From Burkholderiales bacterium (GTDB lineage Bacteria; Pseudomonadota; Gammaproteobacteria; Burkholderiales; Casimicrobiaceae), in assembly GCA_905339295.1 (NCBI GenBank), contig CAJPFI010000039.1, positions 1-44,047 of the forward strand: a DNA stretch of 44,047 nucleotides, in the 5' to 3' direction. Under the pieces are notes generated by a model. The model did not search any database and was not told the DNA's origin. It saw only the letters and a list, made by a program, of their open reading frames with translations. A program made the translations under genes and the position numbers. Each line of letters starts with the position of its first letter. Within the stretch, counting starts at the first letter, position 1. Positions 23,252-40,772 of this stretch are shown in pieces.

Positions 23252-24163
23252 TCATCGCCGCGCGGCTGCCGCGCCGGCGAGTGCTGCGACGACCAGCGCG
23301 GCGAACGCGTTGTGCATGACGGTGCCGACGAGCGTGGGCTGCCGCAGCGTCGCCGCGACGCCCATCGCGAGCGCCCCGAGCGCGCAGGCCGCGATCGTCG
23401 CTGCGCGCGGGCGATCGGCGCGTACCGCCCATGCCGCCGCGAGCGCGAACGCGACGACCGCGATCGACGCGAGCCGGTGCAGCACGACGAGCGCGTCCGC
23501 GCCCGCGGGCGCGCGCGCGCGGCCGTCGACGAGTTCGATCGCGCGCAGCGGATCGAGGATGCCGGAGCCGGCGAGCGTCGAGAGATCGGCGGCCGGGCAC
23601 GAGAGCGCGGGCGGGCACGCGGTCACCGCGAATTGCGCGCCGATCATGCCGCCGAGCATCACGTGGACGAAGGCGACTGCGAGCGCGACCAGCGCGAGCG
23701 TCGAACCGCCGCCGCGCGGCACCGGATCGCGCAGCCGCGCCGATAGCCCCGCCAGCGCGGCGAACAACGCGAAGCCGCCGAGCAGGTTCCCGATCGCGAC
23801 GGCGGGAACGCGCGCGCCGGGCGTCCAGATGCCGAGCGCGGCAAGCGCGAGTGCGATCGCGAGCGCAAGCCAGGCGAGCCGGCGCTCGACCTGAACGCCG
23901 TCCGCGCGCCGCAGCGCGGCGAACGCGAGGACCGCGATCAGCACGAGCGCTCCGGTCGCGGCGAAGCGGTGCACGAGCCGCGCGAGTGCCGTGCCGGGAA
24001 GCGGCGTCTCGGTCGTGTCGACGATCACGCCGTAGCAGGCGGGCCAGTCGGCGCACCCGAGCCCGGCCTGCGAGTGGCGCAGCCACGCGCTCGCCACGAG
24101 CACCAGGAACACCAGCACGGCCGCGGCGACCGACAGGCGGCGTGCGAGCCTCCGGCCGTTCAT
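23252..24163 (-). CDS. Heme A synthase (CtaA/COX15)-like protein
   Basis: A 303-residue, roughly eight-helix membrane protein of the COX15/CtaA family. The N-terminal GLGCADWPACYG cysteine motif and the later CPPALSC pair are typical of the Cys-containing CtaA type. Heme-ligand histidines appear in LVHRFAATGA, FVHVMLGG, VLHRLASIAV and VMHNAFAAL. It would oxidise heme O to heme A or a related heme. It overlaps the stop of the upstream oxidase-like gene by 4 nt (ATGA). It probably matures the heme of that enzyme. A second, longer ctaA lies at 34693 and a truncated copy at 21922. Confidence 0.82.
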   Translation of the reverse strand: MNGRRLARRLSVAAAVLVFLVLVASAWLRHSQAGLGCADWPACYGVIVDTTETPLPGTALARLVHRFAATGALVLIAVLAFAALRRADGVQVERRLAWLALAIALALAALGIWTPGARVPAVAIGNLLGGFALFAALAGLSARLRDPVPRGGGSTLALVALAVAFVHVMLGGMIGAQFAVTACPPALSCPAADLSTLAGSGILDPLRAIELVDGRARAPAGADALVVLHRLASIAVVAFALAAAWAVRADRPRAATIAACALGALAMGVAATLRQPTLVGTVMHNAFAALVVAALAGAAAARR

Positions 24164-25617
24164 CGAGCCGGATCCCCTCGTGTCCCCGCGCGCGGCCGGT
24201 CGCGCACCGCGAGCGCGACGACGACGACGAACAGGACGCCGCCGATCACCGCGACGAGTCCGCCCGCGCCCATCAATCCCATGCCGGCGATCTCGCTCGT
24301 CGTGCGCAGCACCTGCTCGCCGCCCGCGACCTTGCGCTGCACGCCGTAGCCGCCCGACCAGAGCAGGCCGGAGATGTGCATGAGCTGTCCCGCGCCGTAG
24401 AGCAGCGACTGCCAGACCGCGAGCTTCGCCCGCGGTGCGGCGGCGCCCAGCCGCGGCAGCAGCCAGTAGGCGAGGCCCATCAGCGCGATCGTCACGCCGA
24501 CGATGGCGCCATGGTAGTGCGCCGGGATCCTGACGTCGCTGCCTTCGATCAGGAATCCGATCACGCCGCCGGTGCAGAACAGCGCGATCGACACGACGAG
24601 CGCCGCGAGCAGCGGCCGCGCGTGCACCGGGACCGGTCCGTCGCGCAGGCGCCGCGCGAGGCCGGCGACGACCGCAGCGGCGACCACGGGGATCGCGAGC
24701 GCGCCGCCGATGCGCATGAGCCAGGTCTGCAGCCGGTGGTGCTCGACCGACGTGACGTCGTAGGCGAGGTAGACGAGCGTCGTCGCGAAGACCGCGACGA
24801 GCTGGATGCCGAACAGCAGCGCGACGACGCGCGGCGAGACCGGCACGCGCACGCCGGACGCGTCGGCGAGCAGCAGCCAGGCGACCAGCAGCAGCAGCGT
24901 CCACGCGAACTGGAGCACGTGGCCTCCGCCCCAGAACACGAGCTCGTAGTACGCGCGCGGCTCGAGCGATCGCGGCACGACCGCGCCCGACCATGCGAAC
25001 GCGAGCAGCGCGACGGCGCCCGCCACGATCGCCGCGTTGACGCCGAAGCGCAGCGTTCCCGCGCCGTCGAGCCGGACGCCGACGAGCGGCGATGCGAAGA
25101 GCCCGCGCACGACGAGCAGCGCCGAGCCCGCGCCGAAGGCGGCGAGCCCGGACAGGAACACCGGCCCGTCGATCACGGGGATGTAGTTGGCCATGATCGG
25201 CGCGGCGGGATCGACGAACGGCGCCACGGCGATCGCGGCGGTGCCGGCGATCGCCAGCACCAGCGCCGAGCGGCCGAGCGCGAGCGCGCGCGGCGTGCTG
25301 TTGAGGCTCCAGACGGTTCCGGCGAACGAGACGAACCAGACCAGCACCGACAGGTCGACGTGGGCGACCAGCACCGTGCGGAAGAAGTCGCCCGCCGGCA
25401 GGAATCGGCCGACGCCGGGCGTGCGCGCGAGCGCGAGGAACACGGCGAGGAGCCCCGAGGCCGCGAGCGACGCGACGCCAAGCGCGAGCCACCCGATCGC
25501 GAGCCGCGCGCGCTCGTCGCGCGGGACCGCGAGCGCGTATCGGCCGAACGCGACGTCGACGGCCACGCGCGCGACCTGCGGGTCGGCAGCTGCGGTGGCG
25601 GCGGCGGTCGCTTTCAT
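24160..25617 (-). CDS. Divergent heme-copper oxidase-family subunit I, lacking the His+4 tyrosine
   Basis: A 485-residue, 12-helix protein. The six expected histidine ligands are visible: H86 (VAHVDLS), H233 (GGGHVLQF), H293/H294 (VEHHRLQ) and H367/H369 (AHYHGA). The cross-link tyrosine expected at H233+4 is phenylalanine, with Gln at +3. No subunit II gene is adjacent; instead it follows a cytochrome b/ferredoxin/MvhD fusion and precedes a ctaA-like gene with a 4-nt overlap. It may be an NO reductase or an unusual oxidase fed directly by the fusion protein. The start is taken as the ATG at 25617; an ATG at 25644 overlapping the previous gene is possible. Confidence 0.8.
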   Translation of the reverse strand: MKATAAATAAADPQVARVAVDVAFGRYALAVPRDERARLAIGWLALGVASLAASGLLAVFLALARTPGVGRFLPAGDFFRTVLVAHVDLSVLVWFVSFAGTVWSLNSTPRALALGRSALVLAIAGTAAIAVAPFVDPAAPIMANYIPVIDGPVFLSGLAAFGAGSALLVVRGLFASPLVGVRLDGAGTLRFGVNAAIVAGAVALLAFAWSGAVVPRSLEPRAYYELVFWGGGHVLQFAWTLLLLVAWLLLADASGVRVPVSPRVVALLFGIQLVAVFATTLVYLAYDVTSVEHHRLQTWLMRIGGALAIPVVAAAVVAGLARRLRDGPVPVHARPLLAALVVSIALFCTGGVIGFLIEGSDVRIPAHYHGAIVGVTIALMGLAYWLLPRLGAAAPRAKLAVWQSLLYGAGQLMHISGLLWSGGYGVQRKVAGGEQVLRTTSEIAGMGLMGAGGLVAVIGGVLFVVVVALAVRDRPRAGTRGDPAR

Positions 25618-25630
25618 GGCGTCGGCAGGA

Positions 25631-27295
25631 TCACGCCGGCGCATCGGACGGGCGGCGCTCGCGCTTCGGCGGCACGAGTGTAGCGCGGGATTCCGGCGGG
25701 AGCGACGCGAGCTCGTCCCGGAACGCGTCGATCGCCTGCGTGAGCCGCGTCCCGTCCTGCGGGCCGGCCCATGCGATGCGCACGCGCTCGCGCGGGACGC
25801 CGCCGCGCAGGCGCGGCGCGCGCTCGCCCGCGAAGCGCTCCTCGACCCAGCGCTGGCCCAGCCGCCAGACGCAGTCGCCCTCGCGGCAGCCGGTCACGAG
25901 CACGCCGTCGGCGCCGCTGCGAAGCGCGTACTCGACGAACGACGGCGGGAGCTGCGCCGCGCACAGCAGCGTCATCGCGGCGGTGTCCGCCGAGCGCAGG
26001 GCGACGACGTCGACCGACTCGTCGCAGCCGACGACGAGGATGCGCGGCGAGGCGCCGGACCCGTTGCGCTGCGGCGCGGCGACGCGCGCGAGCTCGCGCT
26101 CGAGCGTCGAGCGCGCCGCGCCGATCGGCTTCTGCGGGAGGTCGATGCCCGACACCAGGTCGGCGACCGAGCGGAACGGCGTCGACGACGGGCAGGCGCC
26201 CGCGCAGATGCCGCAGCCCGCGCACAGGTCGGGATCGACGCTCGCCTGGAACGGGTGCGGTCGGCCGTCGGTGCGCGCGACCATCTCGATCGCGTTGTAC
26301 GGGCAGTCGGCGAAGCAGCGCCGGCAGCCGTTGCAGTTCGCGAGCTCGACGACGGCGACCGGCCGGCGCGGCGCGCGCGCCGCGCGCGAGAGGTATGGCA
26401 GCAGCAGGAGCGCGACGGCCGCGACGGCGACGAGCGCCCACAACGCCTGCGGCGACCAGACGTACTGGACGACGTGCGGCGCGAGGTAGAACCAGTCGAG
26501 GCGCAGCGTCGCGGGCTCGACCGCGAGGGCGGCGGGCGCGTCGCTCGTGACCGGCAGCGCGAGCGAGAGCACCGCGAGCGCGGCGAGCGTTCCCCACGCG
26601 AGGATGCGCGGCACCTGCGTGACGGGCCGCTGCAGCCTCTGGACGTGGATCCACATCACGGCGAGCGTCGCGAGCGGGATGCCGATGTGCAGGAAGATCA
26701 GCAGCGAGAAGAACCGGTCGTCGATGCGCGAGTCGTCGTCGAAGTTGGCGGCCAGCGGCTCGGAGAACAGCGGCAGCGCGTCGAGCCATTCGGTCGTCGC
26801 GACGATCGAGAACTGGGCGAGCCGGTCCCACACCAGCCAGAAGCCGCCGACGCCCGACAGCCAGACGAACCCGAGCAGCGCGACGCCCGTGAGCCAGGCG
26901 AATCGCTGGACGTGCGCATAGCGCCGGTGCGCCCACTCGCGCGCGAGGTGCAGCACGGTCAGCAGGATGAACGCGTCGGAGGCGTAGCGGTGCAGGCTCC
27001 GCGCGAGTCCCGACAGCGGCCAGGCGTCCGCGGTGATGCGCTCGACCGAGGCGTACGCGCCCGAGGCGCTCGTGTCGAACGCGGCATACACGTAGATGCC
27101 GGTCGCCGCGACGATCCAGAAAAGGAACCACGCGAGCCCGCCCAGGACGCGCCAGGGGTTGGCGCGCGCTCCGAAGGCCGCGTCGAAGCCGGTGTCGACC
27201 CGGTCGAACAGTGCGCGGACGAGCGAACGCAGCGGCTCGCGCGCCGATGTCGACGCGCCGCCTGCCTTCCCGTCCGGGTCCCGCGCCTCCGGCAT
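25631..27295 (-). CDS. Cytochrome b / 2x[4Fe-4S] ferredoxin / MvhD-like fusion protein
   Basis: A 554-residue fusion. Residues 1-300 are a bc1-type cytochrome b N-terminal module with heme histidines (SLHRYASD, VLHLAREWAH, FLHIGIP, WIHVQR). Residues about 320-390 carry two clusters with C-x2-C-x2-C-x3-CP (CNGCRRCFADCP, CAGCGICAGACP). Residues about 410-500 match the hydrogenase/heterodisulfide reductase delta subunit MvhD/FlpD (VVGCDESVD, VTGCREGDCVWRLG). It would move electrons between a quinone pool or heme b and an Fe-S partner at the inner membrane. FNR-type sites lie 37-80 nt upstream. It leads an operon with the orphan oxidase subunit and ctaA. Confidence 0.86.
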   Translation of the reverse strand: MPEARDPDGKAGGASTSAREPLRSLVRALFDRVDTGFDAAFGARANPWRVLGGLAWFLFWIVAATGIYVYAAFDTSASGAYASVERITADAWPLSGLARSLHRYASDAFILLTVLHLAREWAHRRYAHVQRFAWLTGVALLGFVWLSGVGGFWLVWDRLAQFSIVATTEWLDALPLFSEPLAANFDDDSRIDDRFFSLLIFLHIGIPLATLAVMWIHVQRLQRPVTQVPRILAWGTLAALAVLSLALPVTSDAPAALAVEPATLRLDWFYLAPHVVQYVWSPQALWALVAVAAVALLLLPYLSRAARAPRRPVAVVELANCNGCRRCFADCPYNAIEMVARTDGRPHPFQASVDPDLCAGCGICAGACPSSTPFRSVADLVSGIDLPQKPIGAARSTLERELARVAAPQRNGSGASPRILVVGCDESVDVVALRSADTAAMTLLCAAQLPPSFVEYALRSGADGVLVTGCREGDCVWRLGQRWVEERFAGERAPRLRGGVPRERVRIAWAGPQDGTRLTQAIDAFRDELASLPPESRATLVPPKRERRPSDAPA

Positions 27296-27331
27296 GCCCC
27301 GAGTGTAAGGCCGCTGCAGCGCAGCAGGACT

Positions 27332-27375
27332 TTGACCTGCAATAACCGCCTCCCGGCGGGGTTGACCTCGATCAA
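27332..27375 (-). promoter_or_regulatory. FNR/DNR-type operators upstream of the cytochrome b/ferredoxin fusion
   Basis: A good dyad TTGAC-CTCG-ATCAA lies at 27362-27375, and a weaker TTGAC-CTGC-AATAA lies at 27332-27345, 30 bp closer to the gene. The stronger site would give a minus-strand start near 27327, about 32 nt before the ATG at 27295. It lies between this operon and the end of the 172-residue gene of the adjacent operon. Confidence 0.7.
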
Positions 27376-27469
27376 CCGCGGCGGAAGAGGCTTTGCGAGG
27401 CAAATTTCGTGGCCGGCCGCCGTGCCGACACCCGCCGGACGCGGGGGAGGACCACCCCGCGACCGGAGG

Positions 27470-27988
27470 TCAGGAGCGGAAGACCCATCCGCCGGCGTTC
27501 GCGTCGAAGTCGAGCAGCAGGATCGCGCCCGGCTTGAGCGTCACCGTCGTTTCCTTGACGTAGCCGAAGCCCGGGGCGGGCGCATCGCCCAGCCGGGCGA
27601 CGACGCGGTGCTCGCCCGCCGGCACGCCGACGCGCCGGTAGAGCGTCGCGCTGCCGTCCTTCGCGAACCCGGACGGCGGGACCGATTCGCGCACGAGCAT
27701 CCTGCCGTCGAGCTCGATCTCGACGGCCACGGGCACGCGTTCGCGCGGGCACACGCTCGCCGCGCGCATGTTGGGCGCGAGCTTCGCGAGTTCCTCGGGC
27801 GTGCGCTCGTGGCAGGCTTCCTTGCGCTGGCCCGCGTGCTGCAGCGACAGCTTGACCAGCGCGCCGTCCGGCGGCAGGTGCCGGTAGGGCGGCGCGACGG
27901 AGAAGTACGCGACCACCGCGCAGAACGCCGTGTAGCCGAGCGCCTGCCCGGTGTAGCTGACGATGCGGTTGACCGGATGCGTATTCAT
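27470..27988 (-). CDS. Unknown anchored protein downstream of the cytochrome b/FNR fusion
   Basis: A 172-residue protein I do not recognise. One N-terminal membrane helix (YTGQALGYTAFCAVVAYFSV) is followed by a periplasmic domain with a conserved-looking HAGQRKEACHERTPEELAKL and a C-terminal beta-rich part (VPVAVEIELDGRMLV ... GAILLLDFDA). It starts 3 nt after the stop of the fusion gene, so it is co-translated and probably an accessory or electron-transfer subunit of that complex. It has no CxxCH and no obvious cofactor motif. Confidence 0.65.
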   Translation of the reverse strand: MNTHPVNRIVSYTGQALGYTAFCAVVAYFSVAPPYRHLPPDGALVKLSLQHAGQRKEACHERTPEELAKLAPNMRAASVCPRERVPVAVEIELDGRMLVRESVPPSGFAKDGSATLYRRVGVPAGEHRVVARLGDAPAPGFGYVKETTVTLKPGAILLLDFDANAGGWVFRS

Positions 27989-27991
27989 CGG

Positions 27992-29932
27992 TCACGCCCC
28001 TCCAAGCTTGACCAGGTCCTCGGCGGACGTCGAGCGCACGAGGTGCGGCGTGAGCCGGAACGCGTCCGAGAAGCAGTCGTTCGGATCCATGCCGCGCGCG
28101 CGGAACGCGGGATGCGCGGCCTCGACCATCGCGACCGATCCGCACGCGTAGACCTGATGGCCGGCAAGCGTCGGGAAGTCGGCGAGGATCGCCTCGTGCA
28201 CGAGGCCCGTGCGGCCGGTCCAGCCGTCCTCGGGCCTGGGCTCGGACAGCACCGGCACGAACCGGAAGGTGTCCGGGTGCTCGCTGGCCCACCGCTCGCA
28301 CAGCTCGCGCGCGTACATGTCGCCGAGCGAGCGCGTGCCCCAGTACAGCACCATCTTCCGCTTCAGTCCGGTCGCGAACGCGTGCTCGACCATGCTCTTC
28401 ACCGGCGCGAAGCCGGTCGCGCCGGCGACGAAGACGATCGGCTTCGCCGAGTCCTCGCGCAGGAAGAACGAGCCGAGCGGGCCCTCGAACTCGACGGTGT
28501 CGCCGACCTTCATTTCCTCGAACACGTGCGTCGTGTAGCGCCCGCCGGGCACGCGGCGGATCTGCAGCTCGACGGTCGGCGACGCGCCGGGCGCCGTCGC
28601 GAACGAGAACGCGCGCTTCGCGCCGTCGGGCAGGAGCACGTTGATGTACTGGCCCGCGTAATAGAGGAGCGGCTCGTCGCCCTCGACCGCGAGGCGCACG
28701 ACCATCACGTCGCCGGTGGCCTTCTCCATCGACGCCACCTTCGCGCGCCAGGTCCTCGGCCTGAGGCCGCCGGGAAGCTCGAGCGGCACGTACTCCATCT
28801 CGACGTCGGTGAGCGGCATCGTGATGCACGCGAGCACCTTGCCCGCCGCGCGCTCCTCGTCGGACAGCACCGACTTCTGGTAGGGGCCGACCTCGACGTC
28901 GCCGTACAGGATCGTGCACTTGCACTGGCCGCAGCCGCCGTTGCGGCAGTCGAACGGCATACGGATGTCCTCGCGCAGCAACGCCTCGAGCAGCGTCTCG
29001 CCCGGCCGCGCCGGCACGATGCGGTTGTCCGGTCGCACCGCGACGTGCCGGATCGTCTTCGACTCGTGCCTGGGCGGCAGCCACGGCAGCGCCAGCATGA
29101 ACAGCGTGCCGCCGCCGACGACCAGCCACAGGATCGCCGGGCCCCACGAGTAGAGCAGCGCGAGCGTCGGCAGGTAGAACCAGTCGAAGGCGAGCTCGAT
29201 CGGGGCGCTCGAGAGGTCGGCCGGCTCGAGCGAGACCGCCGGCTTGACGAGCGACAGGACGACGAGCGCGACGGTGAACGGGATCGCGATCGAGCGCGGC
29301 GGGTTGGTGTGCGCGCCGGGGACGCGCTGCGTGTGCACCCACAAGAGCGCGAGGACGCCCAGCGGGAAGCCGATGTGCAGGAACGACAGGAGCGAGAACA
29401 GGCGGTCGTTGACCGCCTCGGGCGTGATGAAGTTGCGCACCAGCGCGCCGTTGAAGATCGGAAGCCAGTCGAGCCACTCGGCGGTCGCGACGACGGTGAA
29501 CTGCGCGAGCCGGTCCCACGGCAGCATGTAGCCGTTGATGCCGGAGATGTAGACCAGCCACAGCAGCACGACGCCCGAGATCCACGAGAACCAGCGGAAC
29601 GCGCGGTAGTGGTCGAACACGAAATGGCGCACGACGTGCAGCAGCATCGTGATCACCATGCCGTCGGACGCGTAGCGGTGGAGGCTGCGGAGGATGCCGC
29701 CGACCCAGCGCTGGTCGTGCGTGATCGCCTCGACCGACTGGTGCGCCTCGGACACACCGGTCGAGAAGAACGCGTAGAGGTAGAGCCCGCTCGCGACGAC
29801 GATCCAGAGCAGGTAGTAGCTGATCGCGCCGAGGTAGTAGAACGGGTTCGACGCCTCGCCGAACGCGCGATTGAACAGTTTCTCGACCGCGAGGAAGGCG
29901 GACTGGCCGGCGTGGTGGATGAGGTGCAGCAT
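27992..29932 (-). CDS. Cytochrome b / [2Fe-2S] / FAD-NAD(P)H reductase fusion protein
   Basis: A 646-residue fusion. Residues 1-300 are a cytochrome b module paralogous to the one at 25631 (SLHRYASDGM, WDRLAQFTVVATAEWLD in both). Near residue 330 a plant-type [2Fe-2S] domain has CRNGGCGQCKC and a later LACIT cysteine. Residues about 390-646 are a ferredoxin-NADP reductase-type domain with an FAD motif (RAFSFATAP), the pyridine nucleotide loop GATGFAPVKSM and a terminal ACGSVAMVEAA. It should exchange electrons between NAD(P)H and heme b/quinone at the membrane. The start at 29932 has only a weak ribosome site. The next gene begins 3 nt later. Confidence 0.87.
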   Translation of the reverse strand: MLHLIHHAGQSAFLAVEKLFNRAFGEASNPFYYLGAISYYLLWIVVASGLYLYAFFSTGVSEAHQSVEAITHDQRWVGGILRSLHRYASDGMVITMLLHVVRHFVFDHYRAFRWFSWISGVVLLWLVYISGINGYMLPWDRLAQFTVVATAEWLDWLPIFNGALVRNFITPEAVNDRLFSLLSFLHIGFPLGVLALLWVHTQRVPGAHTNPPRSIAIPFTVALVVLSLVKPAVSLEPADLSSAPIELAFDWFYLPTLALLYSWGPAILWLVVGGGTLFMLALPWLPPRHESKTIRHVAVRPDNRIVPARPGETLLEALLREDIRMPFDCRNGGCGQCKCTILYGDVEVGPYQKSVLSDEERAAGKVLACITMPLTDVEMEYVPLELPGGLRPRTWRAKVASMEKATGDVMVVRLAVEGDEPLLYYAGQYINVLLPDGAKRAFSFATAPGASPTVELQIRRVPGGRYTTHVFEEMKVGDTVEFEGPLGSFFLREDSAKPIVFVAGATGFAPVKSMVEHAFATGLKRKMVLYWGTRSLGDMYARELCERWASEHPDTFRFVPVLSEPRPEDGWTGRTGLVHEAILADFPTLAGHQVYACGSVAMVEAAHPAFRARGMDPNDCFSDAFRLTPHLVRSTSAEDLVKLGGA

Positions 29933-30156: not shown

Positions 30157-31020
30157 TCAGGCGGGCCGCACGTGGCCGTCCGGCGCGCGGCGACGGCGCC
30201 GCGACGCGGCGATCAGGTACCACACCGTCGCGATAACCATCGTCGTTCCGGTGAACAGCTCGAAGAACAGCGCGTAGTCGAGCCGGTAGCGTCCCGCGCG
30301 CGGGTCGTAGACCGTGCACAGGATGCGCACGCGCTCGATCCAGCCGGCGATGTCGTTCGCCGGCGCGGGCACGCCGAGCACGAGCTCGCGCAGCGGCGCG
30401 ACGAACATCGGCAGCTCGAAGCTGTCGCCGTAGACCTGCCGGACCACGCGGCCTTCGCGGTCGAGGATCGTCGCCTGCGTCAGGTGATCGAAGCCGGCGG
30501 CGGTCGGCACCCACTGGAATCCCAGGTCGCGCGCAAGGTCATCGAGCGTATCGGGCGACGGCGTCGCGAAGGTCCAGCGCGGGTCGACGATGTCCTGCTT
30601 GCGCGCGAACTCGCGCATCGCGACCGGCGAGTCGAACGGCAGGTTGAATCCGATCGTCAGCACGTTGAACCCCGCCTCGCCGACCGCGCGACGCGCCTCG
30701 CCCACGGCCTCGTCGAGGAACTTCGTCGTCGTCGGGCACACCTGGAAGCAGCCGGTGTAGATGAACGAGACGACGAGCGGCTTGCCGCGGAAATCGGACA
30801 TCCGGATTGCGCGGCCGTCGCTCGCGGTGAGCGCGTGGTCGCCGACCGCGCGCCCGATCGCGGCCTGGCTCTTCTCGACCGCCGCGCGCGGGTCGATCGT
30901 CGTGCCGGCCGGCATCGCCTGGCCGAGCGCGAGGTTCCAGACGAGGAGCAGGAGGAGGCCGACCAGCGCGGCGATCAGCAGCCGGTTGAGTTGCTTCGGA
31001 TCGGGCGTCGGATCAGGCAC
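30157..31020 (-). CDS. Sco1/SenC-family copper metallochaperone with extra C-terminal membrane helix
   Basis: A 287-residue protein. An N-terminal anchor (LLIAALVGLLLLLVWNLALG) precedes a thioredoxin-fold Sco domain with C91-x3-C95 (GCFQVCP) and H179 (FDHLTQ), the Cu(I)-binding set. It then extends beyond the usual Sco length with a segment VRILCTVYDPRAGRYRLDYALFFELFTG and a second helix. Sco proteins help to build the CuA centre. The CuA subunit II of the same operon is the obvious client. Its start overlaps ctaB by 8 nt. It is the last gene of the oxidase operon. Confidence 0.86.
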   Translation of the reverse strand: MPDPTPDPKQLNRLLIAALVGLLLLLVWNLALGQAMPAGTTIDPRAAVEKSQAAIGRAVGDHALTASDGRAIRMSDFRGKPLVVSFIYTGCFQVCPTTTKFLDEAVGEARRAVGEAGFNVLTIGFNLPFDSPVAMREFARKQDIVDPRWTFATPSPDTLDDLARDLGFQWVPTAAGFDHLTQATILDREGRVVRQVYGDSFELPMFVAPLRELVLGVPAPANDIAGWIERVRILCTVYDPRAGRYRLDYALFFELFTGTTMVIATVWYLIAASRRRRRAPDGHVRPA

Positions 31021-31924
31021 GGAGGAGCGGTTCGACGGATGCCGCGACGATCAGCAGCGAGAGCTGGACCAGCGACGCGTGGAAGCTCGCGAGCGCGCGC
31101 GGGCGCGTCGGCTCGAGCGCGAGCTGTCCCGCGCGGACGAGCATGAGCACGCCGCCGGCGACGGCCGCGGTTGCGTAGAGCCACGACATGCCGAGGAACA
31201 CCGGGACGAGCGAGGCGGCGACGAGCATCGCGGCGCCCGAGAACACCGCGCGCGCGGCGGCGGCGTCGCCGACCACGACCGGCAGCATCGGCACGCGCGC
31301 CGCCGCGTAGTCGTCGCGGTAGGCGATCGCCAGGCTCCAGAAGTGCGGCGGCGTCCACAGGAACAGCACGACGGCGAACGCCAGCGTCGTCGGGTCGGGC
31401 AGGCCCGGGTCGACGGCGGCGGCGCCCGCGAGAACCGCGAAGCTGCCGGCGAGGCCGCCGATCACGATGTTCCACGCGGTCCGGCGCTTGAGCCAGACCG
31501 TGTAGACGACGCCGTAGGTGAACGCGCCGAGCGCGGTGTAGAGCGCGGACAGCGGGTTGGCGGCGAGCCACGCGAGCCCGACGCCGGCGCAGGCGACCGC
31601 GCCGATCGTCAGCGGCCACACCGGGCCGGCGACGAGCCGCCCGGTGACGAACGCGCGGTTACGGGTGCGGCGCATCGAGCGGTCGATGTCGCGCTCGACG
31701 TACTGGTTGAAGGCGCCGGCCGCGGCCGACGCGAGCGTGACCGCGAGCACGACGCCGATGGCGCGCCATGCATCGATCCCGCCCGGAGCGATCGCGAGCC
31801 CCGCCAGCGCGGTCGCGCCGATCGCGATGCCGATGCGCAGCTTGAACAGGTCGAAGACGAGTCGCCAGCCGGTCGCCGCGCGGGGAGCGGAGCGGGCGGC
31901 GGCGGGTGCGGTGTCGGTAGTCAT
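31013..31924 (-). CDS. ctaB: Protoheme IX farnesyltransferase (heme O synthase)
   Basis: A 303-residue UbiA-superfamily membrane protein with the CtaB/CyoE signatures: NQYVERDIDRSMRRTRNR, which carries the first Asp-rich motif and the R-x2-R-T-x-R-R-like stretch, followed by ANPLSALYTALGAF, YTVWLKRRTAWNIVIGG and WTPPHFWSLAI. It converts heme B to heme O, which CtaA (34693) can take to heme A. Its place in the operon implies that the downstream oxidase-family enzyme uses an O- or A-type heme. A 103-bp gap with a strong hairpin separates it from the subunit I gene. Confidence 0.9.
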   Translation of the reverse strand: MTTDTAPAAARSAPRAATGWRLVFDLFKLRIGIAIGATALAGLAIAPGGIDAWRAIGVVLAVTLASAAAGAFNQYVERDIDRSMRRTRNRAFVTGRLVAGPVWPLTIGAVACAGVGLAWLAANPLSALYTALGAFTYGVVYTVWLKRRTAWNIVIGGLAGSFAVLAGAAAVDPGLPDPTTLAFAVVLFLWTPPHFWSLAIAYRDDYAAARVPMLPVVVGDAAAARAVFSGAAMLVAASLVPVFLGMSWLYATAAVAGGVLMLVRAGQLALEPTRPRALASFHASLVQLSLLIVAASVEPLLRA

Positions 31925-32027: not shown

Positions 32028-33752
32028 TCAGGACAGCGGCCACACCGTCGACAGGTACTTCCAGTTGACGAAGTAGTAGAGGACGAACGCCGTCAGGAAC
32101 ACGAGCGCGAGGACGAAGGTGCCCGGCGCGACGAACCCGGCGGTGCCGATCCCCGCGTGCGAGACCGCCACCGGCTGCGGCACCGGCTTCGGCGCCACGC
32201 CGTCGCGGGCCGCCACCCGCGCGAAATCGGGCGTCTGGATCTTCTTGCCGAGGAACACGCTGCCCACGGTGATCAGCAGGTACATGATCCCGCCGACGAC
32301 CGCCGCGAGCCCGCTGATGGCCATGATGCCCATCATCAGGTACGCGGTGCCCGGGAACTCGTAGCCCAGCGCGTTGCCGGCGAAGGTCATGTCCCAGTGC
32401 CGGCGCGGCACGCCGAGCGTCCCCGCACCCATCATGAACAGCGAGAACGACATCATCCCCAGCCCGAAGACGTACGGCTGCCACTTCGCCATCCCCGGGA
32501 ACATCATCTCGCGGCGGAACAGCGTCGGGATCAGGAAGTAGGTCAGCCCCATGAACGCGAGGGTGGTGCCGACGACGACGGTCGCGTGGAAGTGGCCCGG
32601 AACGTAGATCGTGTTGTGGATGATGAGGTTGAGCTGCTCGGTGCCCATCATCACGCCCGAGATGCCGCCCAGGAATCCGAAGCCGATCAGCGACATGAAC
32701 ATCGCGGAGAAGCTCGGGTTGCTCCACGGCGCCTTGCGCAGCCACTCGAACAGGCCGCGGTTGAAGCCCTTCTCCCGCTGCGCGACCTCGATCGCGCCGG
32801 GCACCGTCAGGCCGTGGACCATCGACGCCAGCACCGCGAGGTACATCGCGTAGCTGGTGTTGAAGATCTTCCAGTTCGACGTGAGTCCCGGGTCGGCGAG
32901 CAGATGGTGCGCGCTCGCGAGCTGCAGGAAGCAGATGTAGAGGAAGAACGCGGTGCGGGACACCTTCTCGGACATCGGCTTCGCGCCGAACACGACCGCG
33001 GCGATCGCGTACCACACCGAGACGTGCGCCGCGACGTTGATCTGCTGCGAGCTGTGGCCGAACGCCCACCACACGGTGCGGTACATCAGCGAGTCGATGT
33101 AGTCCACCAGGCCGATCGACCACAGGAACGTCGGGATCAGGATGATCGCGCCCGACGCGATCGTGAACACGGCGATGATCGCGGCAGTGACCGCGCCGAA
33201 CGTGACCAGCGGGACCGAGCCGTTGTAGGTGCGCTCGGCCTTCGCGACGACGAGCGTCCCGAAGAACACGAAGCACGCGATCAGCGCGCCCACCGCGAAC
33301 AGGATCAGGCCGAGGTAGAACGCCGGGTGCGCGCCCATCGGCGCGTAGGACGTGAACATCACCGACGAGTCGCCGCGGAACACGGCCACGTTGTTGACCA
33401 GCGCCCCGACGATCATCAGCCAGAACCCGAGCCACGCCATGCCCGGCATCGCGAGCCGGCACCTGAGCAGCACGCTCGAGCAGAAGTACAGGACCGCGAT
33501 CTCGAAGAAGATGATCCAGAACACGAGCATGTCGAGCCCGTGCGCGGTGAGCACCAGGTAGAACCAGTCCGGCGGGAGCAGGTGGACGGCGGGCCAGCGC
33601 GTGAGCGTCACGAGCAGCGCCAGGATCCCGCCGACGAGCAGCGAGACCACCGCGGCCACGGCGTTCCACCGGATCAGCTTCTCGGCGGGCTCGTGGTAGA
33701 CCAGCCCCGTCGACGGGCAGGTACGGAACATCCGGTTGACGGCCATGGTCAT
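32028..33752 (-). CDS. Heme-copper oxidase-family subunit I with Gln in place of the cross-link Tyr (NO reductase candidate)
   Basis: A 574-residue, 12-plus-helix subunit I. Ligands: H71 (TAHGLDM), H233 (FGHSSQQIN), H282/H283 (SAHHLL) and H387/H389 (PGHFHAT). In O2-reducing A/B-type enzymes H233+4 is the Tyr cross-linked to the CuB histidine (HPEVY); here it is Gln. That substitution is reported for NO-reducing members of the superfamily, so this may be an NO reductase (eNOR/sNOR-like families) rather than an oxidase. Downstream it shares an operon with ctaB and sco; upstream it shares one with a CuA subunit II and a 57-residue peptide. It starts 4 nt after subunit II. Confidence 0.85.
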   Translation of the reverse strand: MTMAVNRMFRTCPSTGLVYHEPAEKLIRWNAVAAVVSLLVGGILALLVTLTRWPAVHLLPPDWFYLVLTAHGLDMLVFWIIFFEIAVLYFCSSVLLRCRLAMPGMAWLGFWLMIVGALVNNVAVFRGDSSVMFTSYAPMGAHPAFYLGLILFAVGALIACFVFFGTLVVAKAERTYNGSVPLVTFGAVTAAIIAVFTIASGAIILIPTFLWSIGLVDYIDSLMYRTVWWAFGHSSQQINVAAHVSVWYAIAAVVFGAKPMSEKVSRTAFFLYICFLQLASAHHLLADPGLTSNWKIFNTSYAMYLAVLASMVHGLTVPGAIEVAQREKGFNRGLFEWLRKAPWSNPSFSAMFMSLIGFGFLGGISGVMMGTEQLNLIIHNTIYVPGHFHATVVVGTTLAFMGLTYFLIPTLFRREMMFPGMAKWQPYVFGLGMMSFSLFMMGAGTLGVPRRHWDMTFAGNALGYEFPGTAYLMMGIMAISGLAAVVGGIMYLLITVGSVFLGKKIQTPDFARVAARDGVAPKPVPQPVAVSHAGIGTAGFVAPGTFVLALVFLTAFVLYYFVNWKYLSTVWPLS

Positions 33753-33756: not shown

Positions 33757-34302
33757 TCACTTGGCCTTGACGACGTACATGCGGCTCGCCATCGTGTGAT
33801 GGTTGATGCCGCAGTACTCGTTGCAGATGATCGAATAGGTGCCGGCCCGGGTCGGCGTGACGGTCATCACGTGCTCGTAGCCGGGGTGCACCTGGATGTT
33901 GATGTTCTCGGGCTGCAGCGAGAACCCGTGCAGCCAGTCCATCGACGCGAGGTGCAGGCGGTAGGTCTTGCCTTCCTCGAGCTCGACCATCGGCCACCAC
34001 GACCACAGCCGCGCGATCAGGTAGACGTCGCTGCCCGCGGGCGGCGCGACGACCGGGATCTTCTGGTCGGTCTCCTCGCGGACCTTGTACTTGTCCACCA
34101 TCGCCTGCGTCTTCGCCTGGAACATCTCCGGCGTCGTGCGATAGGCCTCGTTGGAGAGGTTCTGCTTACCGTACACGTGCCAGTACGGCATCATGAAGAA
34201 CATGATCAGGCACCACGCGAAGGCGATCACGATCCACGTGCCTTCGACGCGGTCCAGCGGCTGCTTCCACCAGACGCCGGTCGGGGGGGTGAGGGCATTC
34301 AT
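33757..34302 (-). CDS. CuA-containing subunit II of the heme-copper enzyme
   Basis: A 181-residue protein with one N-terminal membrane helix (TWIVIAFAWCLIMFFMMPYW) and a cupredoxin domain. The CuA ligand set is complete: H in DWLHGFSLQ, then C-x3-C-x3-H-x2-M (CNEYCGINHHTM). It is shorter than typical two-helix CoxB proteins, like the single-helix subunit II of B-type oxidases. It would accept electrons from a periplasmic cytochrome c or cupredoxin. It lies between the 57-residue peptide gene (31 nt upstream) and subunit I (4 nt downstream). Confidence 0.9.
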   Translation of the reverse strand: MNALTPPTGVWWKQPLDRVEGTWIVIAFAWCLIMFFMMPYWHVYGKQNLSNEAYRTTPEMFQAKTQAMVDKYKVREETDQKIPVVAPPAGSDVYLIARLWSWWPMVELEEGKTYRLHLASMDWLHGFSLQPENINIQVHPGYEHVMTVTPTRAGTYSIICNEYCGINHHTMASRMYVVKAK

Positions 34303-34333: not shown

Positions 34334-34507
34334 TCACTTGGCGACCGGGATGCCGACGATTTCCATCACGCCCCAGACGATGTAGAGCACCGTCGGCATC
34401 GCGATGCCGATGAAGAGGAGCAGGAACGGGTTGTCGAGGATCTGTTGCATCGCCGGCACGGGTTCGTCGTCGACGTCGAGCGGAGACTCGTTGGATGCGT
34501 TGTTCAT
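34334..34507 (-). CDS. Small single-helix subunit of the heme-copper enzyme
   Basis: A 57-residue protein: an acidic N terminus (NNASNESPLDVDDEPVP), then one membrane helix (FLLLFIGIAMPTVLYIVWGV). The ATG is at 34505-34507 and the stop at 34334-34336, with GGAG about 10 nt upstream. It is the first gene of the oxidase operon, 31 nt from subunit II. The form resembles the small subunit IIa/CoxM-like peptides of B-type oxidases. I infer that it is a structural subunit. It is below common gene-caller size limits. Confidence 0.78.
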   Translation of the reverse strand: MNNASNESPLDVDDEPVPAMQQILDNPFLLLFIGIAMPTVLYIVWGVMEIVGIPVAK

Positions 34508-34692: not shown

Positions 34693-35784
34693 GTGCCTCC
34701 CACCGCCACCTCGCTCGCCCCCCCCGCCGCGTCCGCCGTCCCGCGCGCCGGCGCGTCGAACCGCGCGATCGCCGCCTGGCTGCTGGCCTGCTGCGCGCTC
34801 GTCTTCGCGATGGTCGTCGTCGGCGGCGTCACGCGGCTCACGCATTCGGGGCTGTCGATCGTCGAGTGGCAGCCGATCGTCGGCACGCTTCCGCCGCTCG
34901 ACGAGGCCGCCTGGCAGGACGCGTTCGAGAAGTACAAGCTCACGCCCGAGTACAAGCTCGTGAACGCGGGCATGGCGCTCGACGAGTTCAAGGGCATCTT
35001 CTGGTGGGAATACTTCCACCGGCTGCTCGGGAGGCTCATCGGCGTCGCGTTCCTGGTGCCGTTTCTCTGGTTCCTGCTGCGCCGCCGCATTCCTGACGGG
35101 TACGGCTGGAAGCTCGCCGGCATCTTCCTGCTGGGCGGCCTGCAGGGCGCGATGGGCTGGTACATGGTCAAGAGCGGGCTGGTCGACGACCCCCGCGTCT
35201 CGCAGTTCCGGCTGACCGCGCACCTCGCGCTCGCGATCGTGATCTTCGGCGCGATGCAGTGGGTCGCGATGTCGCTGCTGCGGCCCGCGAACGCCGACGG
35301 CGGCGACGAGCGCGTGCGCTCGGCGCGCCGCTGGGCGCACGCGCTCGCCGCGCTCGTGTTCGCGATGATCCTGACCGGCGGGTTCGTCGCCGGCATCCGC
35401 GCCGGCTTCGCCTACAACACGTTCCCGCTGATGAACGGGCACGTCGTGCCGCCCGAGATCATGATGCTCGAGCCGTGGTGGCGCAATTTCTTCTGGAACA
35501 TGGCGACCGTCCAGTTCGACCACCGGCTCGGCGCGTGGCTGCTCGCCTTCCTCGTGCCGGTGCTGTGGTGGAAGGTGACGCGCGCGCGCGCGCCCGATCG
35601 CGCGCGCACCGGCGCGCACCTGATGCTCGGCATGCTCGCCGTCCAGATCGCGCTCGGCATCGCGACGCTCGTCTACGTCGTTCCGCTGCCGCTCGCTGCG
35701 GCGCACCAGGCGGGTGCGGTGCTGCTGTTCGCGTTCGCGCTCGACGTCGCCCACGCGCTGCGCGCGGCAGGGCGCGAGGCTTGA
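34693..35784 (+). CDS. ctaA: Heme A synthase (CtaA/COX15)
   Basis: A 363-residue, eight-helix membrane protein. [18 protein letters not shown] at the N terminus is the family signature of the proteobacterial/mitochondrial COX15 type. Heme histidines occur in [27 protein letters not shown] and [10 protein letters not shown]. It oxidises heme O to heme A at the membrane. It starts with GTG and lacks a Shine-Dalgarno site. It is divergent from the oxidase operon that holds ctaB, so together they can make heme A for that enzyme. The stop codon lies inside an FNR-type box. Confidence 0.9.
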
Positions 35785-37210: not shown

Positions 37211-38191
37211 CTAATCCGCAGCGAGTGCGAGCCCCGCCGCGGGCACCGCGGCAGGGAAGAGCGATTCCGAGAGCGCCACGACGTCGCCGACGACGATCAG
37301 CGTCGGCGGCTTGAGGCCCTGGGCAACGACGCGCTCGTGCAGCGTGGCGAGCGTGGCGCGCACGACGCGCTGCGTGGGCAGCGTGCCCTGCTGGACGACC
37401 GCGGCGGGCGTCGACGGCGCACGGCCGTGCGCGACCAGTTGCCGGCACAGCTCGGGCAGGCCGGCGAGCCCCATGTAGACGACCAGCGTCTGCCCCGGCC
37501 GCGCGAGCGACGGCCAGTCGAGGTTCATCGTGCCGTCGCGCAGGTGCCCGGCGACGAACGTGAGCGTGTGCGCGTGGTCGCGGTGCGTGAGCGGGATGCG
37601 CGTCGCGGCGGCGATGCCGCAGGCCGCGGTCACGCCGGGCACGATCTCGAACGCGACGCCGGCCTGCGCGAGCGACTGCGCCTCCTCGCCGCCGCGCCCG
37701 AACACGAACGGGTCGCCGCCCTTGAGCCGCACGACGCGCTTGCCTTCGTGCGCGAGCCGCACGAGCAACGCGTTGATGTCCTCCTGCGGCAGCGTGTGGT
37801 TCGAGCGCTCCTTGCCGGCGTAGAGGCGCTCGGCGTCGGGACGCAGCAGCGCCAGCACGCCGTCCCCGACGAGGTGGTCGTAGACGCACGCGTCCGCCTC
37901 GGCGAGGAGGCGCGCCGCCCTGAGCGTCAGCAGCTCGGGATCGCCCGGGCCCGCGCCGACCAGCGAGACGAATCCGCGTCGCGGCGCCCGGGCCGCGCGC
38001 GACGGGATGCGGCCGTTCGTCGCCTCCCCGCCGGCTCCCGCCGTCCCCGCCGCGTGCGCATGCGGCGCGCCGCCGTCCGTCGCCCGTCCCTTCGACCTCG
38101 CCAGCACCTCGCGCCTCCGTTCGGTCCGCCGTCCCGCCGCGGCCGCCTCGGCCGGCGCCGGAACGCGCATTCGCAGTCTAGGAGCGGGCAT
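37211..38191 (-). CDS. nirE: Uroporphyrinogen-III C-methyltransferase (CobA/NirE)
   Basis: Up to 326 residues from the ATG at 38191, with a CobA/SUMT catalytic domain from about residue 72 (VSLVGAGPGDPELLTLRA). Motifs: YDHLVGDGVL, RLKGGDPFVFGRGGEEA and VVYMGL. It methylates uroporphyrinogen III to precorrin-2 with SAM, the entry step to heme d1 and siroheme. The first 70 residues are Arg/Ala-rich and may be untranslated; other starts are possible. It is divergent from nirS with an FNR-type box between them, which supports a NirE role. The remaining heme d1 genes are not in the window. Confidence 0.88.
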   Translation of the reverse strand: MPAPRLRMRVPAPAEAAAAGRRTERRREVLARSKGRATDGGAPHAHAAGTAGAGGEATNGRIPSRAARAPRRGFVSLVGAGPGDPELLTLRAARLLAEADACVYDHLVGDGVLALLRPDAERLYAGKERSNHTLPQEDINALLVRLAHEGKRVVRLKGGDPFVFGRGGEEAQSLAQAGVAFEIVPGVTAACGIAAATRIPLTHRDHAHTLTFVAGHLRDGTMNLDWPSLARPGQTLVVYMGLAGLPELCRQLVAHGRAPSTPAAVVQQGTLPTQRVVRATLATLHERVVAQGLKPPTLIVVGDVVALSESLFPAAVPAAGLALAAD

Positions 38192-38307: not shown

Positions 38308-40011
38308 ATGGGCAAACGCAATCGTTGGCTGATGGGCGCGGCGGTCGTCGCCGCGTTGCCGCTCGCCATTTCGCAGGCCTATGCGCAGCAGGCGGCCCCC
38401 GCGGCCACGGGCGCGTCGCTCACGGCCGCCGAGAAGGACTCGGCGAAGAAAATCTACTTCGAGCGCTGCGCGGGGTGCCACGGCGTGCTGCGCAAGGGCG
38501 CGACCGGCAAGAACCTCGAGCCGCACTGGACCAAGAAGCTGCCCGACGGGACCACGCAGGAAGGCGGCACGACCAAGCTCGGCACGCCGCGCCTCGAGAA
38601 GATCATCGCCTACGGCACCGACGGCGGGATGGTCAACTTCGACGACATCCTGAGCAAGGACGAGATCACGTTGATGTCGCGCTACATCCAGGACACGCCG
38701 GATGTGCCGCCCGAGTACAGCCTCAAGGACACGATCGATTCGTGGAAGGTCATCGTCGCGGTCAGCGATCGGCCGAAGAGGCAGATGAACAAGTTCAACC
38801 TCAAGAACATGTTCTCGGTCACGCTGCGCGACACCGGCGAGGTGGCGCTGATCGACGGCGACACGAAGGAGATCCGGAGCATCGTCAAGACAGGCTACGC
38901 GGTCCACATCTCGCGCCTGTCGAAGTCGGGACGCTACGTCTACGTGATCGGACGCGACGGCCGCCTGTCGCTCATCGACCTGTGGATGGAGAAGCCCGCG
39001 GTCGTCGCCGAGGTGAAGATCGGCTTCGACGCGCGCTCGGTCGACACCTCCAAGTTCAAGGGGTTCGAGGACAAGTACGCGATCGCCGGCGCCTACTGGC
39101 CGCCGCAGTACGTGATCATGGACGGCGAGTCGCTCAAGCCGATCAAGGTCGTTTCGACGCGCGGCATGACCGTCGACGGCGAGTACCACCCCGAGCCGCG
39201 CGTCGCGTCGATCGTGTCGTCCGAGACCAAGCCCGAGTGGGTCGTCAACATCAAGGAGACCGGCCAGATCCTGCTGGTCGACTACTCCGACATCAAGAAC
39301 CTCAAGGTCACGACGATCGAGTCGGCGAAGTTCCTGCACGACGGCGGATGGGACGCCTCGAAGCGCTACTTCCTGGTCGCGGCGAACGCCTCGAACAAGA
39401 TCGCGGCGGTCGACACCAAGACCGGCAAGCTCGCGGCGCTCATCGACACCAAGAAGATCCCGCATCCGGGGCGCGGCGCGAACTTCAAGCATCCGGAATT
39501 CGGTCCGGTGTGGGCGACCGGCCACCTCGGCGACGCGGTGGTCACGCTGATCAGCACGCCGTCCGACAAGCCGGCCGACGCCAGGTACAGGAAGAACAAC
39601 TGGAAGGTCGTGCAGGAGGTCAAGCACATCGGCGCCGGCAACCTGTTCGTGAAGACCCACCCGAAGTCGAAGCACCTGTGGGCCGACGCGCCGCAGAACC
39701 CGGAGCGCGAGCTCGCCGAGTCGGTGGCGGTGTGGGACATGGCCGACCTGTCCAAGCCGAAGAAGGTGATCAACGTGGCGAAGGACTCCGGCCTGCCCGA
39801 GACCAAGGCGATCCGCCGCGCGGTGCACCCCGAGTACAACGCGGACGGCAACGAGGTGTGGATCTCGCTGTGGGGCGGCAAGACCGACCAGTCGGCGATC
39901 GTCGTCTATGACGACAAGACGCTCGCGGTCAAGAAGGTGATCACCGATCCGAAGATGATCACGCCGACCGGCAAGTTCAACGTCTACAACACGCAGCACG
40001 ACATCTACTAG
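38308..40011 (+). CDS. nirS: Cytochrome cd1 nitrite reductase
   Basis: A 567-residue periplasmic enzyme. The signal peptide is about residues 1-26 (ISQAYA/QQ). A c-heme domain has C54-x2-C57-H58 (CAGCHG). An eight-bladed heme d1 propeller follows. The active-site histidines H344 (FLHDGGW) and H386 (PHPGRGANF) are 42 apart, exactly the spacing of His327 and His369 in Pseudomonas aeruginosa NirS. The C terminus PTGKFNVYNTQHD is also typical of NirS rather than NirN or NirF. It reduces nitrite to NO. AAGGAGACGGAG is the ribosome site. nirT follows after 146 nt. Confidence 0.95.
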   Translation: MGKRNRWLMGAAVVAALPLAISQAYAQQAAPAATGASLTAAEKDSAKKIYFERCAGCHGVLRKGATGKNLEPHWTKKLPDGTTQEGGTTKLGTPRLEKIIAYGTDGGMVNFDDILSKDEITLMSRYIQDTPDVPPEYSLKDTIDSWKVIVAVSDRPKRQMNKFNLKNMFSVTLRDTGEVALIDGDTKEIRSIVKTGYAVHISRLSKSGRYVYVIGRDGRLSLIDLWMEKPAVVAEVKIGFDARSVDTSKFKGFEDKYAIAGAYWPPQYVIMDGESLKPIKVVSTRGMTVDGEYHPEPRVASIVSSETKPEWVVNIKETGQILLVDYSDIKNLKVTTIESAKFLHDGGWDASKRYFLVAANASNKIAAVDTKTGKLAALIDTKKIPHPGRGANFKHPEFGPVWATGHLGDAVVTLISTPSDKPADARYRKNNWKVVQEVKHIGAGNLFVKTHPKSKHLWADAPQNPERELAESVAVWDMADLSKPKKVINVAKDSGLPETKAIRRAVHPEYNADGNEVWISLWGGKTDQSAIVVYDDKTLAVKKVITDPKMITPTGKFNVYNTQHDIY

Positions 40012-40157: not shown

Positions 40158-40772
40158 ATGGCCGGCAACGACGAGGCGACGAGCGGCGGGGGCGCGCTGT
40201 CGCGCCTGTGGGGGTGGCTGCGCCGCCCGAGCGGGACGATCACGGTCCTCACGCTGCTCGCCGCCGGCTTCGCCTCGGGCATCGTGTTCTGGGGCGGCTT
40301 CCATACCGTCGTCGAGGAGACGAACACGATGACGTTCTGCGTCTCGTGCCACGAGATGCGCGACAACGTCTACGCGGAGTACAAGGAGACGATCCACTAC
40401 TCGAACCGCACCGGCGTGCGCGCGGTGTGCTCCGACTGCCACGTGCCCAGGGACTGGACGCACAAGATGGTCCGCAAGGTCCAGGCGACGAAGGAGCTGT
40501 ACGGCAAGGTGATGGGCACGATCGCCACGAAGGAGAAGTTCGAGGCGAAGCGCCTCGAGCTCGCCCGGCACGAGTGGGCGCGCATGAAGGCGTCCGACTC
40601 GCGCGAATGCCGCAACTGCCACAGCTTCGACGGGATGAACACCGAAGTGCAGAAGGCGCGCGCCAAGAAGTCGCACGAACTCGGTCAGCGCGACGGGCAG
40701 ACCTGCATCGACTGCCACAAGGGCATCGCTCACAGGAAGCCCCAGGGCATGACCGAGGCGGACGAGGGCTGA
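40158..40772 (+). CDS. nirT: NapC/NirT-family membrane tetraheme cytochrome c
   Basis: A 204-residue protein. One N-terminal membrane helix (ITVLTLLAAGFASGIVFWGG) is followed by four CxxCH sites: CVSCH, CSDCH, CRNCH and CIDCH. This is the NapC/NrfH/NirT quinol dehydrogenase family, which passes electrons from quinol to periplasmic reductases. Its position after nirS makes it the probable electron donor to cytochrome cd1 or to the c cytochrome downstream. AGGAG lies 7 nt before the ATG. Confidence 0.92.
   Translation: MAGNDEATSGGGALSRLWGWLRRPSGTITVLTLLAAGFASGIVFWGGFHTVVEETNTMTFCVSCHEMRDNVYAEYKETIHYSNRTGVRAVCSDCHVPRDWTHKMVRKVQATKELYGKVMGTIATKEKFEAKRLELARHEWARMKASDSRECRNCHSFDGMNTEVQKARAKKSHELGQRDGQTCIDCHKGIAHRKPQGMTEADEG

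Follow-up and report, generated by a model that had tools for sequence, protein, structure and literature searches.

The subject of this report is a gene cluster on a 44,047-nucleotide contig of a Burkholderiales bacterium (CAJPFI010000039.1; the whole of this stretch is called the window). We consider it probable that the cluster belongs to a denitrification island built around nirS and an eNOR-type nitric oxide (NO) reductase. Within it eNOR would be the terminal enzyme, two cytochrome b fusion proteins would be accessory, and a second haem-copper protein, HCO1, would be a recruited haem paralogue with an incomplete CuB site. The system is partly new, as it joins a known enzyme type, an accessory module that we did not find described and a haem-copper oxidase (HCO) family with an incomplete metal site.

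The cluster is a run of ten genes on the minus strand, from 34507 down to 23252, in which neighbouring genes overlap slightly or are separated by no more than about 225 bases. The run order is a 57-aa protein, a CuA (cupredoxin) subunit II, the haem-copper subunit I HCO2, ctaB, sco, a cytochrome b–NAD(P)H reductase fusion (NAD(P)H fusion), a 172-aa protein, a cytochrome b–ferredoxin fusion (Fd fusion), HCO1 and a ctaA-like gene. The coordinates and the minus strand of the genes reported in the original prediction were borne out; the cluster is larger than described there, with the small subunit, CuA subunit II, HCO2, ctaB and sco starting about 4.5 kb further upstream. Pfam or NCBIfam models backed every cluster gene except the 172-aa protein, which had no match, and the 57-aa protein, which stood outside the family search. 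G+C at the third codon position was 0.93–0.95 for HCO1, both fusions and the 172-aa gene; the ctaA-like gene was absent from the picks of the script used for this count and is assigned by Pfam. Gene content, conserved ligands and linkage are directly observed.

The NO reductase of the locus is very probably the eNOR pair at 34.5–32.0 kb and not HCO1, because a CuA subunit II, an HCO2 with an active-site Gln, ctaB and sco all lie upstream and nirS (38308..40011, plus strand; Cytochrom_D1 5e-150) stands about 4 kb beyond the eNOR end of the cluster. The set opens with the small one-helix subunit of 57 aa (34334..34507, minus), and a similar small open reading frame (ORF) precedes the CuA gene in Defluviimonas, Thermus and Thermomicrobium. 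Subunit II (33757..34302, minus; 181 aa), encoded directly upstream of HCO2, carries the CuA-type motif CNEYCGINHHTM and matched Pfam COX2 at 2e-6 and TIGR02866 at 2.6e-10, the latter below its cut-off. HCO2 (32028..33752, minus) scored 224 bits against COX1 and had the ba3 oxidases as its closest solved relatives (E 2e-51). Its HSSQQ sequence aligned with the ba3 H...Y motif, so that Gln237 takes the place of the cross-linked Tyr. Both Q237 and the metal (haem/CuB) histidines H71, H233, H282, H283, H387 and H389 were invariant in the 16 of 16 aligned cluster members; this 16-row alignment is the clean HCO2 set, an earlier one having included some HCO1 proteins. Downstream follow ctaB, coding for haem O synthase (31013..31924, minus; TIGR01473 254 bits, above cut-off), and the gene for a Sco family protein (30157..31020, minus; PF02630 7e-11).

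These features agree with the description of eNOR, the ba3-a1 subtype of the B-family, in the cited literature. The parts of PMC8756737 that we consulted list Gln as an eNOR mark and place subunit II directly upstream, ba3-a1 is the name for the eNOR-type enzyme in the passages of PMC6431628 and PMC8879329, and the missing Tyr and the SCO gene in the operon are noted for ba3-a1 in the former. Assignment of HCO2 to the sNOR type was ruled out, since it has Gln and not the Asn given in a table of PMC8756737, as far as that source was seen; assignment to the B-family O2 reductases failed on the Gln in place of the cross-linked Tyr. HCO2 homologues on Thermus thermophilus and Thermomicrobium plasmids were 47–48% identical and carried GHGAQQ (GHxxQQ being shared), with the order small subunit–subunit II–subunit I common to both, and one Thermus plasmid had a gene annotated as nitrite reductase about 4 kb from the eNOR genes. 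The cytochrome b fusions, the 172-aa protein and HCO1 go unmentioned in the eNOR passages of PMC8756737, PMC8879329 and PMC6431628.

Both fusions begin with a cytochrome b part. In the Fd fusion (25631..27295, minus; 554 aa) it is followed by two [4Fe-4S] clusters and a FlpD/MvhD domain, and in the NAD(P)H fusion (27992..29932, minus; 646 aa from a conserved Met) by a [2Fe-2S] domain and an FAD/NAD(P)H reductase. The domain calls of the original prediction were therefore right: Pfam gave Cytochrome_B, 4Fe-4S and FlpD/MvhD for one protein and Cytochrome_B, Fer2, FAD_binding_6 and NAD_binding_1 for the other. The likely true start of the NAD(P)H fusion is 29932, not the ORF start at 30070, with Met47 of the long ORF nearly invariant; the ORF of the Fd fusion spans 25631–27403, and its likely start lies at about 27295. 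The four haem-b His, eight [4Fe-4S] Cys and three FlpD/MvhD-type Cys of the Fd fusion were invariant (19/19) and a fourth MvhD-type Cys was found in 17 of the 19, while the four haem His and four [2Fe-2S] Cys of the NAD(P)H fusion were kept in 14 of 14. The predicted model of the Fd fusion was fair only (mean pLDDT 75.7, pTM 0.68) and matched cytochrome b, with the C-terminal part matching MvhD (5odc_D). Judging from the hydrophobic stretches, the ferredoxin side of this protein should be cytoplasmic.

The cytochrome b part of the Fd fusion is b6-like (E 2e-35). Cytochrome b of bc1 and b6f complexes carries the PEWY motif. The fusions share with these proteins the four haem-b His, a WD in the cd loop and a DW at about the PEWY place, and the WD and DW sites, kept in both fusions, presumably correspond to the positions of the bc1/b6f quinol-site motifs. 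They differ in keeping DW but not PEWY, in carrying ferredoxin/MvhD or [2Fe-2S]-FAD/NAD domains after the membrane part, and in that none of the ten genes of the cluster encodes a Rieske protein or cytochrome c1/f. Among NCBIfam models, ExtP, of the ExtP/ExtQ b-type cytochromes of selenite/tellurite operons, matched both cytochrome b parts best, although the scores (92 and 99 bits) stayed below the cut-off, which is 290. With MvhD/VhuD, the electron link of HdrABC-Mvh, the Fd fusion shares the FlpD domain and its conserved Cys; here the domain is fused to a membrane cytochrome b, and neither HdrA nor a hydrogenase occurs among the cluster genes.

The 172-aa protein (27470..27988, minus) has one hydrophobic N-terminal stretch and a predicted periplasmic domain. 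A Pfam search with 14 homologues gave no useful match at E up to 1. It lay beside the Fd fusion in all 68 of the loci that had both, and in five aligned rows (three gammaproteobacterial, two verrucomicrobial) it was fused to the C-terminus of that protein. This constant adjacency, together with the C-terminal fusion, argues for a physical association of the two.

Conservation of the gene order was analysed in 80 loci kept of 91 relatives; the set favours close kin because the search started from the HCO1 of the window. The loci were mostly from Burkholderiales and Gammaproteobacteria, with three from Verrucomicrobia and one from Nitrospirota, and the gene set recurred in most of them, beyond chance. 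Neighbours within 12 kb were counted in the 54 loci with at least 8 kb before and at least 3 kb after HCO1: HCO2 was present in 51, CuA in 49, sco in 52, ctaB in 44, the ferredoxin-MvhD part in 49, the 172-aa protein in 53 and the FAD/NAD(P)H part in 42. The commonest order was CuA–HCO2–ctaB–sco–Fd fusion–172 aa–HCO1–NAD(P)H fusion. HCO1 therefore mostly follows the 172-aa gene (in 56 of the 80 loci) and not the Fd fusion (8 of 80).

Two genome samples were used for co-occurrence. Among 200 genomes of the order of the window, HCO1 was found in 20 and eNOR in 19, and all 19 eNOR genomes had HCO1; since the two are co-present in 19 of 19 and lie within 9 kb of each other in 16, a working link between them is likely within this order. 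Among 398 genomes of the phylum, 30 had eNOR, 34 the Fd fusion, 58 HCO1 and 50 nirS. The Fd fusion accompanied eNOR in 29 of the 30 genomes (Fisher p 8e-38, kinship not corrected for), with 15 pairs within 12 kb and two more on the same contig, and nirS was found in 25 of the 30. The Fd fusion and nirS were both present in 26 genomes, within 12 kb in 18 of them, and in 26 of the 34 fusion genomes nirS or eNOR lay within 12 kb of the fusion. HCO1 and eNOR shared 29 genomes, with four pairs within 12 kb and one more on the same contig, and nirS and HCO1 shared 27, with a single pair within 12 kb. Only one of the 24 genomes with HCO1 but neither eNOR nor the fusion had nirS. By these counts and distances the Fd fusion behaves like a gene of denitrification, and HCO1 seems to be of a more general character and to have been brought into the cluster by certain lineages. 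Many assemblies consist of short contigs, so "different contig" is no proof of separation.

Some rows were removed before these comparisons. Five weak HCO1-profile rows were dropped (G217:C3, G290:C29 at 11073, G220:C147, G312:C217 and G294:C113, the first three overlapping eNOR genes), as were two NAD(P)H-type rows (G000, G545) from the fusion search; the nirS comparison also left out second HCO1 or fusion copies in some genomes. Two short rows of another set of 81, L054 and L074, were set aside as well. The row removals altered no genome count.

Individual loci illustrate the same distribution. A Defluviimonas plasmid carries eNOR, cyoE, SCO, a cytochrome b fusion and a small protein in a row; there was no HCO1 in the 29.7 kb shown and no HCO1 match on that plasmid, the chromosome being outside the view, and HCO1 had no matches on plasmids in general. 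In two further loci (L133 and L134) nirS adjoins the Fd fusion and the 172-aa gene, and the 18 kb retrieved there contained neither eNOR nor HCO1.

HCO1 (24160..25617, minus) is a divergent haem-copper subunit I; its ORF spans 24160–25644, and 25617 is our choice of start codon. It scored 51 bits against COX1 (cut-off 35), and the gene that follows (23252..24163, minus) encodes a ctaA-like haem A synthase homologue (COX15-CtaA, PF02628 2.6e-19), so both assignments made earlier held. The description of HCO1 as an orphan stood insofar as no subunit II adjoins it, and fell short in that a CuA/subunit I pair is encoded in the same cluster. The predicted model had the HCO fold (mean pLDDT 84.1, pTM 0.87), and in Foldseek it was about equally near to A-, B- and C-family enzymes and cNOR (E 1e-7 and weaker). 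A single-sequence search of the PDB returned no catalytic oxidase subunit and three weak hits at chance level, and the HCO1 profile matched 7deg_A as its sole PDB entry. The idea that HCO1 is an NnrS protein was dropped, since it matches COX1.

In the alignment with eNOR, H86 corresponded to H71, H233 to H233, H367/H369 to H387/H389 and R428 to R450. Across 96 homologues from varied contexts, H86, H233, H367, H369, E225, Q236 and the Arg-Lys pair were invariant. HCO1 thus keeps the His ligands of the low-spin and high-spin haems (H86, H367 and H369) and the one CuB histidine of transmembrane helix 6 (TM6) in 96 of 96. The CuB His pair was found at the aligned place, 282–283, in none of the 96, the window included, where it reads Val-Tyr: position 282 was never His, and position 283 was Tyr in 80 and His in eight. 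The TM7 CuB pair of eNOR fell on 282–283 in three MAFFT modes and in a second hhalign run. The place of the active-site Tyr/Glu, four residues after the TM6 His, was Phe237 in the window and Phe in 89, Val in four and Tyr in three of the 96 homologues. Altogether, these data suggest that HCO1 is probably a haem-containing, non-catalytic paralogue with an incomplete CuB site. As a separate observation, residue 283 (encoded at about 24769–24771) thus places a Tyr at a CuB-histidine position in most homologues while the usual Tyr site is Phe. The more distant paralogues in loci L087–L089 and L138, examined by eye, are open frames of 642–715 aa downstream of a large protein with KHNLS or KHNFS near its start; those in L087–L089 are followed by genes, ABC-type ones among them, whose reading suggests cytochrome c maturation.

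The mechanism that we propose starts with NirS, which would make NO; eNOR (small subunit, CuA subunit II and HCO2) would reduce it to nitrous oxide (N2O) with electrons entering at CuA, and ctaB, ctaA and Sco would serve eNOR maturation. The Fd fusion and the 172-aa protein would form an accessory membrane module of the NO pathway, in which two haems b and the quinone-site-like motifs may pass electrons between the quinone pool and the cytoplasmic Fe-S clusters, serving NO respiration as a point of electron entry or as a relief path. In this lineage, the NAD(P)H fusion would be the corresponding entry point for NAD(P)H. At the membrane next to eNOR, the fusions would thereby link quinone, NAD(P)H and carriers of the ferredoxin level; they may supply electrons, balance the redox state or provide the reductant with which metals are inserted. 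HCO1 may have been recruited to the cluster in this lineage as a non-catalytic or specialised haem subunit. The direction of electron flow, complex formation and the substrate are what we infer. In a more elaborate variant, which we regard as decidedly improbable, the Fd fusion would touch eNOR and bifurcate quinol electrons at a Qo-like site, driven by NO reduction: one electron would go to CuA and NO, the other via the two haems b to the ferredoxin/MvhD clusters, and HCO1 would be a haem relay in the complex.

The strongest rival, possible though clearly improbable, draws on a parallel with CcoG/CcoH (FixG/FixH), the assembly proteins of cbb3 oxidases: the Fd fusion and the 172-aa protein would act together with Sco, the [4Fe-4S] clusters providing Cu(I) or the reductant needed to insert metals into eNOR. 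The Fd fusion is indeed located among ctaB and sco in the eNOR set, and after its two 4Fe-4S clusters comes, as a separate gene product or in the same chain, a protein for which a periplasmic domain is predicted; this resembles the pairing of a membrane protein carrying two such clusters with a small, partly periplasmic protein in an HCO operon. According to the consulted part of PMC7558416, CcoG itself is a cupric reductase that carries two tetranuclear clusters and ends in an Ig-like domain on the periplasmic side. However, the Fd fusion gave no CcoG/FixG-type Pfam match, it differs from CcoG by its cytochrome b membrane domain with haem ligands and by the extra FlpD domain, and its four invariant haem-b His and the DW and WD motifs have no obvious need in a copper reductase; in L133 and L134, moreover, the module stands beside nirS in stretches lacking eNOR and HCO1. 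Also unlikely, to us, is that HCO1, instead of carrying electrons, handles haem for haem-copper enzymes or helps to assemble them. Outside the cluster, ctaA-, ctaB- or CuA-like genes lay near HCO1 in 9 of 12 fetched phylum stretches (L125–L128, L130, L132, L135, L136 and L139), and its haem ligands and Arg-Lys pair are invariant while the CuB pair is not; but such neighbours are expected for any HCO, and they were missing from L129, L131 and L138.

The original prediction had the Fd fusion feed HCO1 as a ferredoxin- or quinol-linked oxidase or NO reductase without CuA or cytochrome c. HCO1 does follow the fusion directly in the window, and in the genome samples it accompanied eNOR in 19 of 19 cases in the order and the fusion in 33 of 34 in the phylum, but this model now appears very improbable. 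An eNOR-type subunit I with its CuA subunit II is encoded in the same cluster, the direct succession of the Fd fusion and HCO1 is confined to eight of 80 loci, and of the phylum genomes with both genes, six of 33 had fusion and HCO1 no more than 12 kb apart, against 15 of 29 for fusion and eNOR; the other 27 fusion–HCO1 pairs were all on different contigs, many of them short. The Defluviimonas plasmid keeps eNOR and a fusion where no HCO1 was seen, and the CuB site of HCO1 is incomplete. What survives of the proposed undescribed complex is a conserved, denitrification-linked electron-transfer cluster that we did not find described; the part that made the fusion and HCO1 one enzyme does not. 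We rejected HCO1 as the NO reductase of the locus on the grounds of the eNOR pair in the same cluster. Least probable of all is that HCO1 itself reduces NO or O2 at an unusual metal site (e.g., His233, Tyr283 and, in the clade of the window, His293/His294), perhaps using the CuA of the eNOR set. In its favour are the invariance of E225, H233 and Q236 and the presence of His293 in 74 of 96 rows; an HH dipeptide occurs at 293–294 in seven rows forming one nested clade that includes the window, one hhalign run paired H293 with eNOR H283, and certain other genomes have CuA-like genes in the vicinity of HCO1. The remaining alignments nevertheless put the CuB pair on 282–283, and in the model, with helices at 262–285 and 291–326, residues 293–294 lie just beyond the TM7 helix. 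The HH dipeptide of the window was therefore rejected as a regained CuB pair.

Several points weigh against the nirS–eNOR island as we read it. The TM7 alignment of HCO1 differs by one gap choice: the first hhalign run, with a 10-residue gap, led to Glu292-His293, a placement at which likewise no row has a His pair. Within the order, HCO1 goes with eNOR in all 19 eNOR genomes, the three pairs beyond the 16 close ones being on different contigs (assemblies of 370–600 contigs). Of the 29 eNOR–fusion pairs of the phylum, 12 were on different contigs. One of the 30 eNOR genomes (G267) lacked the fusion, and five of the 34 fusion genomes lacked eNOR, four of these being 69–82% complete and one in 730 contigs. 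Both samples contain many related genomes. No fusion and no HCO1 accompanied the eNOR genes of Thermus and Thermomicrobium over the 25.5 kb shown, so the fusion module is not needed for eNOR as such. The two Cys of the 172-aa protein are replaced in the Verrucomicrobia rows and hence are not a general redox site. Finally, a qNOR is also encoded in the genome, so its main NO reductase may be one other than eNOR.

The genome further has a B-family-like enzyme, a cbb3-type subunit (by motif) and a second nirS-like gene on contig C6; the top COX1 match, on contig C9, we take for an aa3 type from its score. No NosZ was found above the cut-off of the single model used, TIGR04244, which gave two weak matches below it, one of them the CuA subunit; the pathway may therefore end at N2O.

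Enzymes of the eNOR type are a recently recognised source of N2O, and the sources disagree on their electron donor, which is reduced cytochrome c in the consulted part of PMC8879329 and quinol in that of PMC13274419. A conserved cytochrome b–Fe-S module travelling with eNOR and nirS is a candidate electron-supply or maturation factor. Genes of the HCO1 type keep both haem sites and lack the CuB His pair at the aligned place in all 96 homologues; a genome survey can mistake them for oxidases or NO reductases. Literature searches, which did not reach figures, supplements and the main eNOR paper, did not find this gene set described.

Beyond the cluster, a second, canonical-looking haem A synthase gene (34693..35784, plus; PF02628 6e-116) diverges from it. 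The stretch 37211–41944 forms a nitrite-reduction set beside the cluster: a cobA/nirE-like uroporphyrinogen-III methyltransferase gene (37211..38191, minus; TIGR01469 302 bits, above cut-off), nirS, a gene for a NapC/NirT-type cytochrome (40158..40772, plus; PF03264 2e-74) and one for an ethylbenzene-dehydrogenase-like haem protein. A transposase (DDE_Tnp_1/DUF772) is encoded at 42885–43994, on the far side of this set. Just past the ctaA-like gene, at 23000–23240, GC-rich short repeats of the GGGTCCGGCTTCAGCCGGAC type were seen by eye. At 7793–11721 there are genes for an AAA ATPase and a VWA/CoxE-like protein, with GNAT and UbiA genes between them, a pair that we take to be reminiscent of NorQ/NorD or CbbQ/CbbO. 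An anaerobic ribonucleotide reductase and a radical SAM protein are encoded at 13104–17123; homologues of both occur near the cluster in L007 and L013, and that of the radical SAM protein alone in L008. The large gene at 17226–20696, of lower GC, reads by eye as a secreted subtilisin-type protease.

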